From: Luteimicrobium xylanilyticum
Lineage (GTDB): Bacteria; Actinomycetota; Actinomycetes; Actinomycetales; Cellulomonadaceae
Direction: 5' to 3'
DNA length: 64,000 bases
Assembly: GCF_009429125.1 (NCBI RefSeq)
Contig: NZ_CP045529.1
Location: 620,001 to 684,000 of the forward strand
Part shown: one piece after another, positions 12,469-31,530 of the stretch
Layout of the letters: every line of letters begins with the position of its first letter
How positions within the stretch are numbered: position 1 is the first letter of the stretch
Program-made: the position numbers and the translations under genes
The notes under the pieces: model-generated
Database searches by the model: none
The model's input: the letters and a program-made list of their open reading frames with translations, nothing else
Told to the model about the DNA's origin: nothing

Positions 12469-13077
12469 TCAGGGGAGGAGGCCGGCCAGGCTGTCGACGA
12501 CGACCGCCTCGACGGTCTCGCGGTCGTGCCGGCCCGTCGCGAGCCAGCGGGCGAGCACTGCCTCGACGAACCCGACCCAGCCGGCGGCGAGGAGGTCCAG
12601 CCGGCCGCGGGCGCCGTCGTCGGGCGCGGGCAGGCTGCTCCCGGCGACACGCGTGAAGCGGGCGAACAGGTGGGCGCGGACCTCGTCGAGGCGGGCGGCC
12701 GTCGCGTCGTCGTCGCGGAGGGCCCCGGACCAGATGTCGGTCCAGAGCTGGCGTTCGGCGAGCACGGCGTCGAGGAGCGTGTGCACGACTGCGGCCCGCT
12801 GCGCGCCGAGCTGGGCCGAGCCGGTGGGGGGCACGTCGTCGAGGGCGGTGTCGAGGGCGTCGATCGCGATCGCGGCGACGGCCCGTCGCAGCTCGACGGT
12901 CGAGCCGAAGTAGTGGAAGACGAGCGCCTTGGACGCGTGGGCGGCGGCACCGACGTCGGCGGGGGTGACGGAGTCGAGGCCGCCGTCACGGGCCATGCGG
13001 TGCGCGGTGCGCAGGAGCTCGTCGCGACGGTCGTCGGCGGCGCGGCGCCGGGGTCTCGCTCGGCGGTCGGTCGTCAC
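12469..13077 (-). CDS. TetR-family transcriptional regulator
   Basis: A 202-residue repressor. The N-terminal helix-turn-helix is DELLRTAHRMARDGGLDSVTPADVGAAAHASKALVFHYFGS (residues about 19–58), ending in the typical YF. The C-terminal ligand domain is all-helical with no obvious ligand. It is divergent from the ABC-like/YhgE operon. Two perfect 17-bp palindromes in the gap (13094–13145) are its probable operators, suggesting control of both directions. Confidence 0.93.
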   Translation of the reverse strand: MTTDRRARPRRRAADDRRDELLRTAHRMARDGGLDSVTPADVGAAAHASKALVFHYFGSTVELRRAVAAIAIDALDTALDDVPPTGSAQLGAQRAAVVHTLLDAVLAERQLWTDIWSGALRDDDATAARLDEVRAHLFARFTRVAGSSLPAPDDGARGRLDLLAAGWVGFVEAVLARWLATGRHDRETVEAVVVDSLAGLLP

Positions 13078-13093: not shown

Positions 13094-13145
13094 GTTGACC
13101 CTCGGTCAACAAGGGTAGTACCGTTGCTGTTGACCGATGGTCAAC
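13094..13145. promoter_or_regulatory. Two tandem TetR-type operators in a divergent promoter
   Basis: GTTGACC-CTC-GGTCAAC (13094–13110) and GTTGACC-GAT-GGTCAAC (13129–13145) are perfect inverted repeats 35 bp apart centre to centre. Each contains a TTGACC that can serve as a -35 box, one for each direction; TACCGT at 13119 is a candidate rightward -10. Binding of the adjacent TetR protein would block both promoters. Autoregulation is inferred. Confidence 0.85.
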
Positions 13146-13216
13146 ACTCATCCCGGGTGGCCCGTCCCGCGTACCGCTGGTGAAGTGGCACCCAGCTCTC
13201 GCACCGAGGTGGACGC

Positions 13217-14083
13217 ATGCAGATCGTTCTCGACGGGGTCGCCGTGCAGGGTCGGCGCGACCCGATGCTCGCGCCGTTCTCCCTCACTTGGCGCACCGGC
13301 GAGGCCGTGCTCGTCGCCGCGGAGCCCGGGCACGGGCACACCGCGCTCGCCCTTGCTGCGACCGGCCGGCTCGTGCCGTCGTCGGGCACGGTCACGCTCG
13401 AGGACGCGCCGCCGGCCGACCCCCCGCTCACGCTCGCCGACGTCACCGCGGTCGTCGACGTGCCGGGCGTGTCCGAGCCCGTCGAGTCCATCCCGGTTCG
13501 CACGCACGTCGCCGAGGACCTCGCGCTCGCCCGACGACGCACCCTGCCCCGCGACGTCGCCGCCTGGATCGCGACGCACGGCCTGGACGACGTCGCCGGG
13601 CTGCGCGTCGACCAGCTCGACGCCCTGACCCGCACGAGGATGCTCGTGGCGCTCGCCGCCGAGCGGGCCGACGTCCACTTCCTCGTCCTCACGCTGCCCG
13701 ACCGGCACGGCGGAGCGCCCGCCGGCTGGTGGGCCGTCGCCTGCGACGCCGCGGCCGCCGGGTACGGCGTGCTCGTCCAGTGCTCGCGCGCCTCGGCGCG
13801 GCTGCTGGGCGCCGAGATCCCGCCCGACGTGACCGTCGACCCGCGGACCGAGCCGCCGCTCGTCGCGCTGCGCCGGGCGTTCGCGGTCGCGGAGCCCGTG
13901 GCCCCCGAGGAGTCGCTCTCCGACGAGCCCGACGCCGACACCACCACCACCGACGACGACACCGAGGTCCTCCCGCCGCCCGCCGACCCGCAGAACCTGC
14001 CCGACGTCGTCGGGCCCGAGCCCCGACCTGAGCCGGGACCCGAACCCCGCACCGACGCCCCCGCCGAAGGAGCCGACCGATGA
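13217..14083 (+). CDS. Degenerate ABC-type ATPase partner of YhgE/Pip
   Basis: A 288-residue protein with the layout of an ABC nucleotide-binding domain but broken catalytic motifs. The N-terminus (IVLDGVAVQGRRDPMLAPFSLTWRTGEAVLVAAEPGHGHTALALAATG) matches an ABC beta-sheet and P-loop. GxxGxGK(S/T) reads AEPGHGHT, with the catalytic Lys replaced by His41. The signature region reads QLDALTRTRMLVALA in place of LSGGQ. Walker B reads HFLVLTLPDRH, where the usual D-E is T-L. A Pro/Asp/Glu/Thr-rich tail occupies residues about 235–288. ATP hydrolysis is unlikely. It overlaps the YhgE gene by ATGA, so it is probably a structural or regulatory subunit. Confidence 0.7.
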   Translation: MQIVLDGVAVQGRRDPMLAPFSLTWRTGEAVLVAAEPGHGHTALALAATGRLVPSSGTVTLEDAPPADPPLTLADVTAVVDVPGVSEPVESIPVRTHVAEDLALARRRTLPRDVAAWIATHGLDDVAGLRVDQLDALTRTRMLVALAAERADVHFLVLTLPDRHGGAPAGWWAVACDAAAAGYGVLVQCSRASARLLGAEIPPDVTVDPRTEPPLVALRRAFAVAEPVAPEESLSDEPDADTTTTDDDTEVLPPPADPQNLPDVVGPEPRPEPGPEPRTDAPAEGADR

Positions 14084-16398
14084 CCGTGTTCCGACTCGGG
14101 TGGTCCGAGGTCCGCCGGAACCTGTCCGGCACGCTGCCGAAGCTTGCGATGATCGCGCTCGCCGTGATCCCGTCCCTGTACGCGGGGCTCTACCTGTTCG
14201 CGAACTTCGACCCCTACGGCCACCTGGACAAGGTCCCGGCGGCCGTCGTCGTGCAGGACGAGGGGACGGACGTCGATGTGAGCGCGGCCGGGACCGACGC
14301 CGCGGATCGGGAGACCGAGCACCACAACTACGGCGACGAGGTCGCGGACGAGCTCACGGACGACGGCGGCTTCGACTGGGTCCGCACGACCCAGGAAGAC
14401 GCGGAGCGCGGGGTGCGGTCGGGCCGGTTCGACGCGGCGCTGATACTCGGCCCGACGTTCTCCGCGGACCTCGCCTCGCCGTCGACGCAGGACCCGCGCC
14501 AGGCGAGCCTGACCCTCGTCACGAACGACGCCAACAACTACCTGGCGCGCACCATCGCGGACACGATCGTCGGCCAGGTCCGCGACACGCTCGCGCAGAA
14601 GGTCGGGACGCAGGCCGCGGACACGTTCCTGCAGGGCTTCGCGTCGATCCACACCAACCTCGCGGACGCCGTCACCGGGGCCGACAAGCTCGTCGACGGC
14701 GCGAAGAAGCTCGACACGGGCGCCGCGTCGCTCGACTCGGGTGCCGCCACCCTCGCGACGGGCGCGAGCGACGCCGCCGACGGCGCGCGGCAAGTCTCCG
14801 ACGGGGCCGCGTCCACGCACGCGGGGGCGACGCAGCTCGCCTCGGGCGCGCAGGCCCTGTCCGACGGCGCGTCGCAGCTCGCGTCGCAGACGCCGGCCCT
14901 CGCGTCCGGGGCGACGAAGGTCGCGTCCGGCGCCTCCGACCTCGCGGACGGTGCCGGGACGCTCGCGGGCGGCCTCGACACGCTGCGGTCCAAGACCGCC
15001 GACCTGCCGACGCAGGCGTCGAAGCTCGCCGACGGCGCGCAGCAGGTCGCGGACGGCAACGCCCGGCTCTCCGACGTCGCCGACCAGGTGAAGGACGCCG
15101 CCGACTCGGCCGTGGACGGGCTCGACGACGCCCGCGCGACGATCTCCGACCAGCTCGACGACCTCGTCGACCAGGGCGTCCTCACGCGCGCCCAGGCCGA
15201 CGACGTCCTCGCCCGGCTCGACGACGCGGGACAGTCCGTGCGCGACGGCGTCGGCGACCTCGACACGCAGGTCGGCAAGGTCGACCAGCTCGCGAAGGGC
15301 GCTCAGCAGGTCGCCGACGGTGCGTCCACGCTCGCGTCGAGCACGCCCGCGCTCACGCAGGGCATCGCGAAGGCGGCGTCGGGCGCGGACGACCTGGCGG
15401 ACGGCGCGACGACGCTGCACACCGGGGCCTCGTCGCTCGCTTCCGGCGCCCAGAAGGCGTCGGACGGAGCTGGACGGCTCGCGTCAGGCGCGAAGGAGCT
15501 GGACACGGGGGCCGCGTCGCTCGCGTCAGGCACGTCGACCCTCGCGTCCGGCGCGTCGTCGCTCGCCACGGGGACCGCGAAGGTCGCCGACGGCGCAGGC
15601 GACCTCGCCGACGGCGCCCACACCCTCCACACGGGCGCGGGCTCGCTCGTCGACGGCACCCAGCAGCTCGCCGACGGCCTGCGACAGGGCCTCGGCCAGG
15701 TCCCGAACCTCAGCGACGACCAGCGCGAGGCCACCGCCTCGACGATCGCCAACCCGGTGCAGGTCGTGTCGCAGCAGCTCTCCAAGGCGGGCAGCTACGG
15801 CGCCGGTCTCGCGCCGTTCTTCCTGTCCCTCGCGGCGTGGATCGGCGCGTACGTCACGTTCCTCATCGTCAAGCCCCTGTCCAAGCGGGCGCTCGCGGTG
15901 GGGCGGAGCGCCCTGCGCACCACGCTCGGCGGGCTCTTCACGCCCGCGCTCCTCGCGATCGTCCAGGTCGTCGTCATGCTGTCCGTCACGGCGCTCGCCG
16001 TCGGCGTGCACGTCGAGCACGTGCTCCTCACCGGGCTGTTCCTCGCGCTCGTCGCGATCACGTTCGCCGCGATCCTGCAGACCCTCAACGTCTACCTCGG
16101 CACCGCCGGCCAGTTCCTCGGGCTCGTGCTCATGCTGACCCAGCTCGTCACGGCCGGCGGCACGTTCCCGTGGCAGACGATCCCCGAACCGCTCCGCACG
16201 TTCCACCGCTTCCTGCCCATGAGCTACTCCGTCGAGGGGCTCCGACAGCTCCTGTTCGGCGGGAACATGGGCACCGTCTGGCGGGACGTCGCCGTGATCG
16301 TCGGCTTCCTCGTCGTCGCCGTCGGGCTCACGACGTGGGCGGCGCGCCGCCAACGCGTCTGGCGGGCGCTCCAGCTCGAGCCCGAGCTCGTCTTGTGA
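14080..16398 (+). CDS. YhgE/Pip-family membrane protein (ABC-2-type exporter-like)
   Basis: A 772-residue membrane protein. One membrane segment is near the N-terminus (LPKLAMIALAVIPSLYAGLYLFANF). A very long extracytoplasmic region follows, then about five membrane segments at the C-terminus (residues about 570–755). Residues about 200–545 consist of dozens of imperfect 7- and 11-residue repeats of the type (A)DGAxxLxxGA, forming a long helical rod. This is the YhgE/Pip (phage infection protein) architecture, related to EsaA of type VII secretion and to MmpL/ABC-2 exporters. Substrate unknown. Coupled to the degenerate ABC protein; probably repressed by the divergent TetR. Confidence 0.88.
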   Translation: MTVFRLGWSEVRRNLSGTLPKLAMIALAVIPSLYAGLYLFANFDPYGHLDKVPAAVVVQDEGTDVDVSAAGTDAADRETEHHNYGDEVADELTDDGGFDWVRTTQEDAERGVRSGRFDAALILGPTFSADLASPSTQDPRQASLTLVTNDANNYLARTIADTIVGQVRDTLAQKVGTQAADTFLQGFASIHTNLADAVTGADKLVDGAKKLDTGAASLDSGAATLATGASDAADGARQVSDGAASTHAGATQLASGAQALSDGASQLASQTPALASGATKVASGASDLADGAGTLAGGLDTLRSKTADLPTQASKLADGAQQVADGNARLSDVADQVKDAADSAVDGLDDARATISDQLDDLVDQGVLTRAQADDVLARLDDAGQSVRDGVGDLDTQVGKVDQLAKGAQQVADGASTLASSTPALTQGIAKAASGADDLADGATTLHTGASSLASGAQKASDGAGRLASGAKELDTGAASLASGTSTLASGASSLATGTAKVADGAGDLADGAHTLHTGAGSLVDGTQQLADGLRQGLGQVPNLSDDQREATASTIANPVQVVSQQLSKAGSYGAGLAPFFLSLAAWIGAYVTFLIVKPLSKRALAVGRSALRTTLGGLFTPALLAIVQVVVMLSVTALAVGVHVEHVLLTGLFLALVAITFAAILQTLNVYLGTAGQFLGLVLMLTQLVTAGGTFPWQTIPEPLRTFHRFLPMSYSVEGLRQLLFGGNMGTVWRDVAVIVGFLVVAVGLTTWAARRQRVWRALQLEPELVL

Positions 16399-17647: not shown

Positions 17648-18028
17648 CTATTCAATTGACAATGTCAGGACGTGGCTAGCCGAGACGATGAGCGCCAGCA
17701 CCGACAGCGCCAGCATGCCCAGGCAGTTGACCCAGAACGCGGACGTGAGGAACCGTGCGCGCACGTGCGAGGCGGCCGCGACGAGGAAGTAGAGGACCGC
17801 TCCGGCGCTCGCGGCGACGGCCAGCCCGGGCGTGCTCAGCCCGACGAGCAGGCCGGCGACGGCGGCGAGCTTGATGACGATCAAGACCCACCACCAGTCG
17901 CGCGGGAACCCGACGCCGGTGAGGCAGTCGCGGATGAACGCGGGCGGCCGGAGCGACATCAGCGCGTCGGAGAGGAGCGCCGCCGCGAGCAGGACGGCGG
18001 GCCACCACACGTCGGGGGCGTGGTTCAT
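17648..18028 (-). CDS. DoxX-like membrane protein
   Basis: A 126-residue, four-helix membrane protein of the DoxX-like family: WWPAVLLAAALLSDALMSL, WWWVLIVIKLAAVAGLLVG, LAVAASAGAVLYFLVAAASHV and FWVNCLGMLALSVLALIVS. Family members are linked to redox or quinone functions, but no role can be assigned here. Its ATG overlaps the stop of the upstream TetR gene (ATGA), so it is the second gene of a two-gene operon and probably the main target of that repressor. Confidence 0.82.
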   Translation of the reverse strand: MNHAPDVWWPAVLLAAALLSDALMSLRPPAFIRDCLTGVGFPRDWWWVLIVIKLAAVAGLLVGLSTPGLAVAASAGAVLYFLVAAASHVRARFLTSAFWVNCLGMLALSVLALIVSASHVLTLSIE

Positions 18029-18639
18029 GCGTGTGCTCCGGGGGTCGGGTGGCTGTGGGCCACGAAGGTGACGACGTCGCGCAGCGCCTCGCGGGCGGCG
18101 TCGGCGTTCGGGGTCCCCCCGCCGGCCCAGGCGAAGAGCGAGCCGAGGTACGCGAGGTAGATCGTCCGGGCAGCGGCGGCCGGGTCCGACGGGTGGTCGG
18201 GCGAGTGCTCCAGCGCGGCCTGGATCCGGGCGAGGAACCCCGGCACGAGATCGCCGAACACCCCGCCCGGGTGCCGCCCGGACATGAGGATCGCGCCGTA
18301 CTCGCGCGCGAGGTCGAGGTGGGTCGCGAAGAGGCTGAGGAACGGGTCGACGACGGCGAGCACGGCGTCGGTGACGTCGTCCGGCCGGGCGTCGCGCGAG
18401 CCCGCGTCGGGCGCGGGTCGTGGGGCGTCCTGGAGCTCGCCGATGAGGGCGTCGAAGGTGGCGACGAGCAGCGCGTCCTTGTCGCCGACGGTCATGACCG
18501 TCCCGACGCTGACCCCGGCGGCGGCGGCGACGTCGCGGACGGTCGTCGCCCGGTAGCCCCGTTCGAGGAACAGCCGTGAGGCCGCGGCGACGACGCGTGC
18601 ATGAGTCTCGGCGCGCATCTCCTGGCGGGTGGGCACCAT
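18025..18639 (-). CDS. TetR-family transcriptional regulator
   Basis: A 204-residue repressor. The helix-turn-helix is ETHARVVAAASRLFLERGYRATTVRDVAAAAGVSVGTVMTVGDKDALL (residues about 11–58). The recognition-helix end has VMTVGDK instead of the usual YYHFxxK. The C-terminal domain is helical. Translationally coupled to doxX. Two TGAAC-AN-GTTCA elements just upstream (18655–18679) are probable autoregulatory operators. The ligand is unknown. Confidence 0.92.
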   Translation of the reverse strand: MVPTRQEMRAETHARVVAAASRLFLERGYRATTVRDVAAAAGVSVGTVMTVGDKDALLVATFDALIGELQDAPRPAPDAGSRDARPDDVTDAVLAVVDPFLSLFATHLDLAREYGAILMSGRHPGGVFGDLVPGFLARIQAALEHSPDHPSDPAAAARTIYLAYLGSLFAWAGGGTPNADAAREALRDVVTFVAHSHPTPGAHA

Positions 18640-19439: not shown

Positions 19440-19454
19440 CAGAATCGACGCGTG
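19440..19454 (+). promoter_or_regulatory. Leaderless-type -10 box of the YdiJ-like gene
   Basis: CAGAAT at 19440–19445, a one-base variant of TANNNT, lies six bases before GTG 19452. Confidence 0.4.
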
Positions 19455-22400
19455 ACCGTCGACCTCCCTCAGCGCCCGTCCCCGACCGATCCCAGCTCGA
19501 GCGCCACGCGGTCCCTGTCCTCCGAACGTGCCCGTGACGAGCTGGCGACGGCGCTGCGACGCGCGCTCGGCGTCCCGCACGAGGCCAAGCGGCAGAAGGG
19601 CCCCGGGGGGCTCGTCGTCGACACGTCGTCGCTGCGCCGGGCGGAGTACTCGACGGACGCCTCGAACTACCGGGTCGTGCCCGACGTCGTGGTGCTGCCG
19701 CGGTCCGTCGACGAGGCCCAGGCGGTCCTCGAGGTCGCGCGCGAGCACGCCGTCCCCGTGACGTCGCGCGGCGCGGGGACGAGCTGCGCGGGCAACTCGG
19801 TCGGTCCCGGGATCGTGATCGACTTCAGCCGGCACGTGAACGCGGTCCTCGACGTCGACCCCGAGACGCGGACCGCGCGGATCGAGCCGGGCGTCGTGAT
19901 GTCGACGCTGCAGAAGGCCGCGGCGCCGCACGGCCTGCGCTTCGGGCCCGACCCGTCGACCCAGAATCGCGCGACCCTCGGCGGCATGATCGGGAACAAC
20001 GCGTGCGGCCCGCACGCGGTCGCGTACGGGCGGACGGCGGACAACGTCGTCGAGCTCGACGTCGTCGACGGCCGCGGGCACCGCTTCACCGCGGGCGCGG
20101 GCGACCCGACGTTCGGCGCGATCCCCGGCCTCGCCGACCTCGTCCGGTCCAACCTCGCGCTGGTCCGCACCGAGCTCGGCCGGTTCGGGCGCCAGGTCTC
20201 GGGCTACTCGCTCGAGCACCTGCTGCCCGAGCGCGGTTCGGACCTCGCCAAGATGCTCGTCGGGACCGAGGGGACGCTCGTCACGGTCCTCGGCGCGACC
20301 GTGAACCTCGTGCCCGTCGCGGGCGCGCCGACGCTCGTCGTGCTCGGCTACCCCGACATGGCCGAGGCCGCCGACGCCGTCCCCGCGCTCCTCGAGCACC
20401 ACCCGCTCGCGATCGAGGGCCTCGACGCGCGGCTCGTCGACGTCGTCCGGCGAGCCAAGGGTGCCGACACCGTCCCGGCGCTGCCCCCGGGCGGCGGCTG
20501 GCTCATGGTCGAGGTCGGCGGTGCGACGGCGGACGCGGCGATGGCCCGGGCGCTCGAGATCGTCGCCGCGTCGGGCACGAGCGCGACCCGCATCATCCCC
20601 GCCGGCCCCGAGGCGAGCGCGATGTGGCAGATCCGCGCCGACGGCGCCGGGCTCGCGGGGCGCACCCCCGCGGGCGAGCAGGCGTGGCCCGGCTGGGAGG
20701 ACTCGGCCGTCCCGCCCGCCCAGCTCGGCGCGTACCTGCGCGACCTGGAGGCGCTGATGGCCCAGTACGGCGTCGACGGCTTGCCCTACGGCCACTTCGG
20801 CGACGGCTGCGTGCACCTGCGCCTCGACATCCCGCTCGAGACCTCGGGCTCGGTGCTGCGGACCTTCATGACCGACGCCGCGATGCTCGTCGCGAAGTAC
20901 GGCGGCTCGCTGTCGGGCGAGCACGGCGACGGCCGCGCGCGCTCGGAGCTGCTCCCCGTCATGTACTCACCGAGCGCGATCACCGCGTTCGAGGGCGTCA
21001 AGGCGCTCTTCGACCCGCGCGACCTGCTGAACCCTGGTGTGCTGGTCCGGCCCAACCCGCTCGACGTCGACCTCCGCCGCCCGCAGGCCGCGCCGGTGCT
21101 CGCCAAGCCCAAGGCGTACCGCGAGCCCATCGGGTTCGCGTTCCCGCACGACCACGGTGACTTCACGCAGGCCGTGCACCGCTGCGTCGGCGTCGGCAAG
21201 TGCCGGGCCGACACGTCGGCGTCGGGCGGGTTCATGTGCCCGTCGTACCTCGCGACGAAGGACGAGAAGGACGTCACCCGCGGCCGCGCGCGCGTCCTGC
21301 AGGAGATGATCAACGGCTCGCTCGTCACCGGCGGCTGGCGCGCGCCCGAGGTGCACGACGCCCTCGACCTGTGCCTGTCGTGCAAGGCGTGCTCGTCGGA
21401 CTGCCCGGCCGGCGTCGACATGGCGCAGTACAAGTCCGAGGTGCTGCACCGCGCGTACAAGAACCGGGTCCGCCCGGTCACGCACTACGTGCTCGGCTGG
21501 CTGCCGCGGTGGCTCCGGGTGGTCAACGTGGCACCCCGCCTCGTCAACAGGGTGCTGGGGAACCGCGCGATCGCGAAGGCCGTGCTGTGGTCCGGCGGGA
21601 TGGACCCGCGCCGCCAGATGCTGCCGTTCGCGGAGATCCCGTTCCGCACCTGGTACCGCCGCGGGGGGCGACGAACGGCGTCCCCGTCGAGGTCGCGTCC
21701 GAGCGCCGCGTGCCCGACGCGCGGTCCGGCGGCGCGCGCACCGACGCGCCCGAGCGTCCGCGCGTCGTGCTGTGGGCCGACTCGTTCAGCGACGGCCTCT
21801 CGCCCGAGGTGCCGCAGGCGGCGCTGAAGGTCCTCGACGCAGCCGGGTACGACGTCGTGGTACCGGGGCAGGACGCGTGCTGCGGCCTCACCTGGATCAC
21901 CACGGGCCAGCTCGACGGCGCCCGCAAGCGACTGGAGAACCTGCTCCAGGTGCTCGGGCCGTTCGCGGTCAACGGGCTGCCGATCGTCGGGCTCGAGCCG
22001 TCGTGCACGGCCGTGCTGCGCTCCGACCTGCTCGACCTGTTCCCCGACGACCCGCGTGCCCAGGCCGTCGCCGCCGCGACGCGCACGCTCGCGGAGCTGC
22101 TCACCGACCCCGTGACCGCGCCCGACGCCGAGTCCGGCTGGAAGGTCCCCGACCTGTCCGACGTGACGGCCGTCGTCCAGCCGCACTGCCACCAGCACTC
22201 GGTGATGGGGTTCCAGGCGGACGAGCGCCTGCTGCGCGAGGGCGGCGCGGACATCCAGGTGCTCGCCGGGTGCTGCGGGCTCGCCGGCAACTGGGGCATG
22301 GAGAAGGGCCACTACGAGACGTCGGTCGCGGTGGCAGAGCGGGCCCTGCTGCCAGCGCTGCGCGACCTGCCGTCCCGCGGGTCCGACGACGGCGAGCGCG

Positions 22401-29881: not shown

Positions 29882-31530
29882 ATGGTCCAACCACAGGGCG
29901 CACAGCCGGTGGCCGCCGAGCCGACCGCCGCGCCACCGGGCGGCAGCCCCGCCCCAGCCCCCGTGCTCGAGGTCACGGGGCTGCACAAGTCGTTCACGGG
30001 TGTGCACGCCCTGCGCGACGTCGACTTCGCCGTCCGCCCGGGGGAGGTGCACGCGCTCATCGGCGAGAACGGAGCCGGGAAGTCGACCCTGATCAAGGTC
30101 ATGACGGGGGTCTACGAGCCCGACGAGGGCGAGGTCCGGCTCCGCGGCGAGGAGGCCGCGTTCGCGAGCCCGCTCGCCGCCCAGGAGGCGGGGATCTCCA
30201 CGATCTACCAGGAGGTCAACCTCGTCCCGATGATGAGCGTCGCGCGGAACCTGTTCCTCGGGCGCGAGCCGCGCCGGTACGGGCTGATCGACTCGACGCG
30301 CATGAAGCGCGAGGCACGCGACATCCTGCGCGACTACGGCGTGCACGTGAACCCGGCGCGCCCGCTGCGCTCGCTCGGGCTGGGCGCGCAGCAGATGGTC
30401 GCGATCGCGCGGGCCGTCCAGATCGACGCCCGCGTCGTGATCATGGACGAGCCGACGTCGTCGCTCGAGGCGCGCGAGGTCGAGACCCTGTTCGGCGTCA
30501 TCCGTCGCCTGCGCGCCCAGGGCATCGCGATCGTCTACGTGAGCCACCGGCTCGACGAGCTGTACCAGGTCTGCGACCGCGTGACGGTGATGCGGGACGG
30601 CGCCGTCGTCCGTGTCGACGACATGTCCGCGGTGGACCGCATCACCCTCGTCTCGCTCATGCTCGGCCGCGAGATCGGCGACGTGCGCAAGCACGGCGCG
30701 ACCGGTTTCGCGGACGCCGAGCACCAGGTCAAGGGTGCGCCCGTCGTGGCCGCGCACGACCTGCAGCGGCGCCACCAGCTCGACGGGGTGTCCGTCGACA
30801 TCCGCCCGGGGGAGGTCGTGGGCCTCGGGGGTCTGCTCGGCTCGGGCCGCAGCGAGACCGCGAAGGCCATCATGGGTGCCCTCCCGCTCGACGGTGGCAC
30901 GGTCGAGATCGGTGGAGCCACGACGCGGCGGACGGTCGCCGCGTCGATCCGGGCCGGCGTCGTCATGCTCCCGGAGGACCGCAAGCTCGAGGGCATCGTC
31001 CCGAGCCTGTCCGTGCGGGAGAACATCGTCCTCGCGGCGCTCCCGCGGATCACGCGCGCCGGCCTGGTCGACCGGGCCAAGCAGGACGAGATCGTCGACT
31101 ACTTCATGAAGCGGCTGCGCATCAAGGCGTCGGGCCCGGACCAGCGCGTCTCGGAGCTGTCGGGCGGGAACCAGCAGAAGGTCCTGCTCGCCCGGTGCCT
31201 GTGCCTCGACCCGAAGGCGCTCCTGCTCGACGAGCCGACGCGCGGCATCGACGTCGGCGCCAAGGCCGAGGTCCAGGGGTCATCAACGAGCTGGCCGAGC
31301 AGGGGCTCGGCGTGCTGCTCATCTCGTCGGAGCTGGACGAGCTCATCGAGGGCTCCGACCGCGTCGTCGTGCTCAAGGACGGCCGCGTGGTCGGCGAGCT
31401 CACGGGCGACGACGTCACGCAGGACACGCTCATGACCACGCTGGCCGACGCGCCGCCCGAGCCCGACCTGTCCCGGCCTGCGGACGAGCCGGTCATCGAG
31501 AGCGCAGCACAGGAGGAGACCCATGACTGA
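29882..31530 (+). pseudogene. Sugar ABC transporter ATP-binding protein, split by a one-base frameshift
   Basis: A duplicated-domain sugar ATPase (RbsA/YtfR type) of 549 residues if repaired. Domain 1 has Walker A GENGAGKST and Walker B VVIMDEPTSS; domain 2 has the degenerate GLLGSGRSE loop, signature ELSGGNQQKV and Walker B LLLDEPTRGIDVGAKAEVQ. Immediately after that, at the GGGG run 31275–31278, the frame is lost. Adding one G gives QGVINELAEQGLGVLLISSELDEL and continues to the stop at 31530. ATG 29882 is preceded by GAGAAAGG. The 3' end overlaps the first permease gene by 8 bases. Intact motifs on both sides point to a recent mutation or a base-call error. Confidence 0.87.

Follow-up and report, generated by a model that had tools for sequence, protein, structure and literature searches.

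A conserved ABC-derived protein lacking ATP-hydrolysis residues accompanies YhgE in Luteimicrobium xylanilyticum and its relatives

Proteins of the YhgE/Pip family, such as Lactococcus Pip and Enterococcus PIP_EF, are common on the surface of Gram-positive bacteria and are best known as entry factors for phages. To our knowledge, they have no settled transport role or energy source. Here we describe a locus of Luteimicrobium xylanilyticum in which yhgE is preceded by a gene for a 288-residue protein that, as judged from its sequence, is derived from an ATP-binding cassette (ABC) ATPase and is without the residues for ATP hydrolysis. We refer to this protein as the pseudo-NBD, for pseudo-nucleotide-binding domain. 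The locus lies in a 64,000-nucleotide stretch of contig NZ_CP045529.1 (assembly GCF_009429125.1, positions 620,001 to 684,000), which we call the window and whose own numbering is used throughout.

The YhgE of the window is an ordinary member of its family: both terminal domains score above cut-off (N-terminal TIGR03061, E = 1.3e-41, 141.9 bits against 96.15; C-terminal TIGR03062, E = 5.1e-62, 209.2 bits against 102.2), and the LxxG repeat lies between them. It differs in having a coupled pseudo-NBD gene, whereas 13 of 80 inspected loci, which were hand-picked from match lists so that their proportions are not prevalences, have no ABC-like gene upstream. The two-gene layout of NBD plus permease recalls ABC-2 exporters (PF12698 plus PF00005), and there are matches on both sides, the YhgE C-terminal membrane domain to ABC2_membrane_3 (PF12698, 4.7e-22) and a profile of pseudo-NBD relatives to ABCA3 (1.7e-17); unlike in these exporters, the partner has no Walker A Lys, signature or Walker B Asp-Glu. 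Loss of NBD catalytic residues is also a property of exporters with one degenerate site (TAP, TM287/288, MsRv1273c/72c), but these keep a second site active, whereas the window type has no regularly linked active NBD. Finally, 15 related loci carry the pseudo-NBD beside yhgE as the C-terminal tail of an MMPL transporter of the RND superfamily, the group of MmpL3/4/5. The window locus differs in having no MMPL gene; the genome has MMPL genes elsewhere, and L211, the sole one read to its end, is without such a tail.

A survey of Bacillus subtilis ABC proteins describes degenerate sites in RbsA and NupO, and YhgE goes unmentioned in the searched part of its text (PMC11466899). In ginkgolic-acid-resistant E. 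faecalis, YhgE was mutated in both clones (PMC8754111); because section 9 of that paper gives a susceptibility effect for Fur alone, the work fixes no YhgE substrate. Among the matches listed from the open-access PMC literature, no paper describes a YhgE-adjacent pseudo-NBD family or the fusion of such a partner to MMPL. Each of YhgE/Pip, ABC-2 exporters, degenerate NBDs and MMPL is already known.

The coupled pair comprises the following features.
13217..14083, plus strand: pseudo-NBD gene, ABC-ATPase-like, 288 residues (ABC NBD profile matches, motif table, dN/dS); a core of about residues 1-205, then a variable, acidic and proline-rich tail
13322..13369, plus strand: relic P-loop and next helix, residues 36-51 (EPGHGHTALALAATGR), with His41 for Lys, and Arg51
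13604..13657, plus strand: ABC signature position, residues 130-147, no LSGGQ (PDB NBD alignment, motif table)
13679..13732, plus strand: Walker B/D-loop position, residues 155-172, LVLTLPDRHGG for LVLDEPTSGLD (PDB NBD alignment, motif table)
14080..14083, plus strand: ATGA overlap of the pseudo-NBD stop and the YhgE start, translational coupling (sequence)
14080..16398, plus strand: YhgE/Pip membrane protein gene, 772 residues (TIGR03061, TIGR03062, TIGR03057, PF12698); N-terminal domain, LxxG repeat rod at about residues 191-550, C-terminal ABC-2-like membrane domain

The ABC ancestry of the pseudo-NBD emerges from profiles. As a single sequence it falls under the cut-off of Pfam ABC_tran (E = 0.063), and it is not among the 127 ABC_tran matches of its own genome. 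With a profile of 23 close homologues, PDB ABC ATPases are matched by way of the P-loop region, the best at 4.2e-5, and a profile of 40 broader partners aligns with PDB ABC NBDs across the domain (positions 20-192), with HmuV, MlaF, LolD and CcmA joining the ABCA3 match. The ABC-domain layout ascribed to this protein in the preliminary description, which was made from the sequence alone, thus stands at the level of the 40-partner profile, and the single sequence stays below threshold.

Every motif expected of an active NBD is altered. The P-loop reads E36-P-G-H-G-H41-T, which places His41 at the position of the Walker A Lys and leaves EPGHGHT where GxxxxGK[ST] would be. RVDQLDALTRTRMLVALA occupies the signature position, where there is no LSGGQ. 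Walker B reads LVLT159-L160-PDRHGG, so that Thr159 and Leu160 replace the Asp and the catalytic Glu, and in the PDB NBD alignment Cys189 stands at the position of the H-loop His. The losses named in the preliminary description (P-loop Lys to His, no LSGGQ, Walker B Asp-Glu to Thr-Leu) are all borne out by the motif table and this alignment. As a control, we took from this genome the 30 ABC domains with the highest scores: 30 of 30 have GxxxxGK[ST] and a signature-like pattern, and all show the three motifs by pattern. This control is lenient, being selected by top score, with a loose signature pattern scanned across the whole open reading frame (ORF).

The altered protein is conserved. Homologues at E <= 1e-20 occur in 51 of 200 genomes of its own GTDB family (own genome included), and 51 further genomes of the family have weak matches only (E 1e-6 to 1e-3). 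A profile search of the order found 54 of 297 genomes at 1e-20 and 5 more at 1e-12, and at the level of the phylum 14 of 296 genomes match at 1e-9, seven of them strongly (below 1e-30) and all seven within the order; a related-locus search gave one locus, in Luteimicrobium album. These surveys at three levels rule out a single-copy oddity. YhgE adjoins the homologue on the same strand in all 40 neighbourhoods inspected (20 picked from the family and 20 from the order). The ratio of nonsynonymous to synonymous substitution rates (dN/dS) of the core is 0.116 between the window and locus L072 and 0.086-0.194 in six other pairs, against a looser 0.447 in the variable tail and a stricter 0.02 in the YhgE membrane domain. 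The core is open and stop-free in 31 loci and in an overlapping set of 40, with the same or similar motif changes in many genera, and a single TGA flagged in some family matches lies beyond the core in the loci aligned. Because of the frequency in the family, the unbroken adjacency to yhgE and the core dN/dS, we conclude that the gene is not decaying: the changes are retained across homologues, and the core is under purifying selection.

A new conserved feature is Arg51, ten residues past the Lys position, which is present in all 68 aligned partners (53 stand-alone and 15 fused). Arg never stands there in 30 canonical NBDs from the same organism's genome: Leu occurs in 24 of them, Val in 3, and Glu, Ile and Met in one each.

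We then asked what partners YhgE has elsewhere. Among the 80 loci, an ABC-like ORF lies upstream of YhgE in 67. Across the stand-alone partners, 53 with that of the window, the residue at the Lys position is His in 24, Arg in 11, Pro in 8, Lys in 6, Leu in 2 and Gln in 2; the Walker B Asp is retained in 16, and neither the catalytic Glu nor, by the motif table, LSGGQ is found in any of them. Homologues with intact catalytic residues, which would have pointed to decay of the window copy, are thus missing from the 53, though six keep Lys. A second set of 57 loci ranked by YhgE score and overlapping with the 80 contains 41 ABC-like ORFs; by pattern, eight of these have GK[ST], whereas the signature and a Walker B of the form DEP are missing from all 41. 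On sequence grounds, degeneracy is thus common to the ABC-like partners of YhgE as sampled, and the word "unusual" in the preliminary description, if taken to mean singular, is not supported.

To place these partners in an evolutionary frame, we used a tree of 85 YhgE rows and counted the changes needed for each partner class. A single clade (support 99/98) unites the 41 YhgEs whose stand-alone partners are the most degraded; it requires one change and spans nine GTDB families, which implies that the degraded state is old and inherited; it was probably reached once in the window's clade and then kept. Two changes are required for the fused set, 3 for the less degraded one and 4 for YhgEs without a partner, and the long branches of L190, L192, L193, L197, L191 and L201 make some placements unsure. 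The 13 loci without an upstream ABC-like gene include five tandem YhgE pairs (L177, L178, L179, L180 and L194). As the members of each pair fall in two separate clades, these pairs suggest a YhgE heterodimer.

In the 15 fused loci (L169, L170, L175, L181, L183, L184, L186, L187, L189, L190, L192 and L195-L198), the ABC-like domain forms the C-terminal end of an ORF of far greater length. The tail pattern of these MMPL proteins is seen in 14 of them, L187 being without it, and Pfam MMPL matches all nine fused ORFs tested, L187 included. We aligned 14 tails, omitting L170 as a near-copy of L169, and in an hhalign comparison their profile matches that of the stand-alone partners with a probability of 99.1 (E = 1.5e-18). 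The alignment skips the stretch of the helical/signature subdomain, so the fused domain is shortened; from what is generally known of NBDs, the usual ATP sandwich would therefore be impossible. Against the PDB the tail profile also finds ABC proteins (YtrE, 1.3e-8), although the top row is a designed barrel in which no stretch passes alone. The Lys position of the 15 fused domains is Arg in 9, Ala in 3 and Val in 3, never Lys, and Glu stands at the catalytic position in 2.

On the YhgE side, the long repeat rod is real, since TIGR03057 matches 13 LxxG stretches of the 772-residue protein between the two terminal domains. The ATGA overlap at the gene junction, which likewise agrees with the preliminary description, is also present in L072, and the 27-base offset of L072 is common to 29 of the 40 loci L072-L111.

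Upstream, the locus has the layout of a divergent unit under putative TetR control.
12469..13077, minus strand: TetR-family repressor gene, 202 residues (Pfam TetR_N 3.5e-8, TetR_C_46 4.3e-8)
13094..13110, no strand: operator 1, palindrome GTTGACC-CTC-GGTCAAC (perfect; conserved upstream of homologues)
13129..13145, no strand: operator 2, palindrome GTTGACC-GAT-GGTCAAC (perfect; 35 bp from operator 1)

The two perfect 17-bp operators facing the divergent TetR gene had been noted from the start, and their tandem arrangement proves to be conserved along with that gene. The 15-base core TTGACC-N3-GGTCAA has two matches in the window at no more than one mismatch against 0.03 expected. In a survey that allowed up to two mismatches, all 15 loci with a divergent TetR gene, the window among them, had tandem copies 31-35 bp apart upstream and none of the 7 loci lacking that gene did; two copies arose in none of 4400 mononucleotide-shuffled upstream regions. 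With the window TetR as query, a divergent homologue is found in 14 of 20 family loci. In L103 and L107, weak TetR matches follow yhgE on its own strand and are not divergent, which suggests a different regulatory layout in that family. By eye, the TTGACC halves of the operators may double as -35 boxes, and TACCGT at 13119-13124 could be the -10 element; no promoter emerged from a scan with the sigma-70 consensus.

A second TetR-family gene lies near the module (18025-18639, minus strand). Further along are an ORF that by eye, from its translation, resembles a flavin adenine dinucleotide/iron-sulfur oxidase (19452-21827), whose Arg/Ser/Pro-rich end is apparently out of frame, perhaps through a frameshift or a sequencing error, and two ABC_tran domains (30011-31240) that share one 958-residue frame.

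Taken together, we put at roughly 55% the probability that the pseudo-NBD is a conserved non-catalytic ABC domain kept as a cytoplasmic adapter of YhgE under TetR repression. It probably works as a connector and not as a motor. YhgE would contribute the ABC-2-like membrane domain and the long repeat rod, which we take to face outward, and the pseudo-NBD would dock at the NBD site on the cytoplasmic face of YhgE, where it could stabilise or orient a YhgE dimer and tie it to other envelope machinery, with no pumping by ATP. In one branch this link would be covalent, the signature-less pseudo-NBD being the tail of the yhgE-adjacent MMPL transporter; given that tail, transport in the fused branch would be proton-driven and YhgE an accessory. 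The divergent TetR would repress the coupled pair from its two operators until a ligand, perhaps hydrophobic, induces it. The substrate may itself be hydrophobic or envelope-related, to go by the general habits of MMPL and TetR systems. The "energy-independent or scaffold-type export complex" of the preliminary description fits these data.

Several observations pull the other way. The relic P-loop is the best-conserved part of the protein, with 13 invariant columns out of 16 when 23 family sequences are compared and 22 out of 125 for the remaining core, which is more conservation than a pure scaffold seems to require. Six of the 53 stand-alone partners retain Lys plus the Walker B Asp and may still bind nucleotide. 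AlphaFold2, run on a two-row alignment only (window plus L031), gave no usable model (pLDDT 38.4), and for this reason the ABC fold assignment rests on the profile matches. L140, a partner outside the 68, has His at the Arg51 position. Pfam ABC_tran was seen in one of nine fused ORFs, below cut-off (0.011). There is no MMPL gene at the 65 non-fused loci or in the window, so that the RND link is shown for the fused loci only and not for the window type.

A bolder form of the adapter idea, which we regard as doubtful, is that the pseudo-NBD could be a shared plug that couples YhgE to its driver, being part of the proton-driven MMPL protein in one lineage and, in the window's, a free protein recruiting such a driver in trans, so as to give a mixed ABC/RND export complex.

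An equally doubtful alternative takes the conserved P-loop at face value. Strong conservation of a dead pocket leaves room for ligand sensing, and the old nucleotide pocket might bind a metal (through His39, His41, Asp162 and His164), an altered nucleotide or a lipid head group, and thereby gate YhgE. His164 does not vary among the 23 family sequences, and the other three, His39, His41 and Asp162, are each at least 90% conserved; however, the spatial closeness of these four residues is an assumption, and the set is not general, because the P-loop positions of sister clades read EQRPT or QDQRT.

Less probable again is a static role of ATP, in which partly degenerate partners would bind it structurally and the window's clade would be the endpoint of an erosion that left the fold alone. 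By the motif table, 15 of the 17 partners that have Lys or Arg also have the Walker B Asp, as does 1 of the 36 others. Both halves of the nucleotide site are thus mostly lost jointly, which speaks for such a role. Erosion alone, however, leaves the near-fixed new motifs and the low core dN/dS of the window pair unexplained.

We find it slightly less plausible still that ATP matters through an active NBD encoded elsewhere, with which the pseudo-NBD would pair. Exporters that combine a degenerate with an active site are well known (PMC7756269, PMC12038006), and the genome has 127 ABC_tran matches, but canonical ABC genes (strict pattern) occur in only 4 of 40 neighbourhoods, and known cases usually encode both NBDs together.

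A decaying ABC gene heading for loss, for which one could cite the alteration of every catalytic motif and the loose tail, is very improbable, being ruled out by conservation and by dN/dS, with a stop-free core in both locus sets and low values in all seven pairs.

An ABC-derived partner without hydrolysis residues, which some species carry as part of an RND transporter, offers a lead that can be tested on how YhgE is assembled and what powers it. It would also stand as a bacterial example, broadly distributed, of a pseudo-ATPase partner encoded as a separate protein, and it warns against taking every gene annotated as an ATPase of these systems for a motor. If the pseudo-NBD is indeed a plug shared with MMPL proteins, YhgE would be an ABC-2-type membrane domain re-engined by an RND motor.

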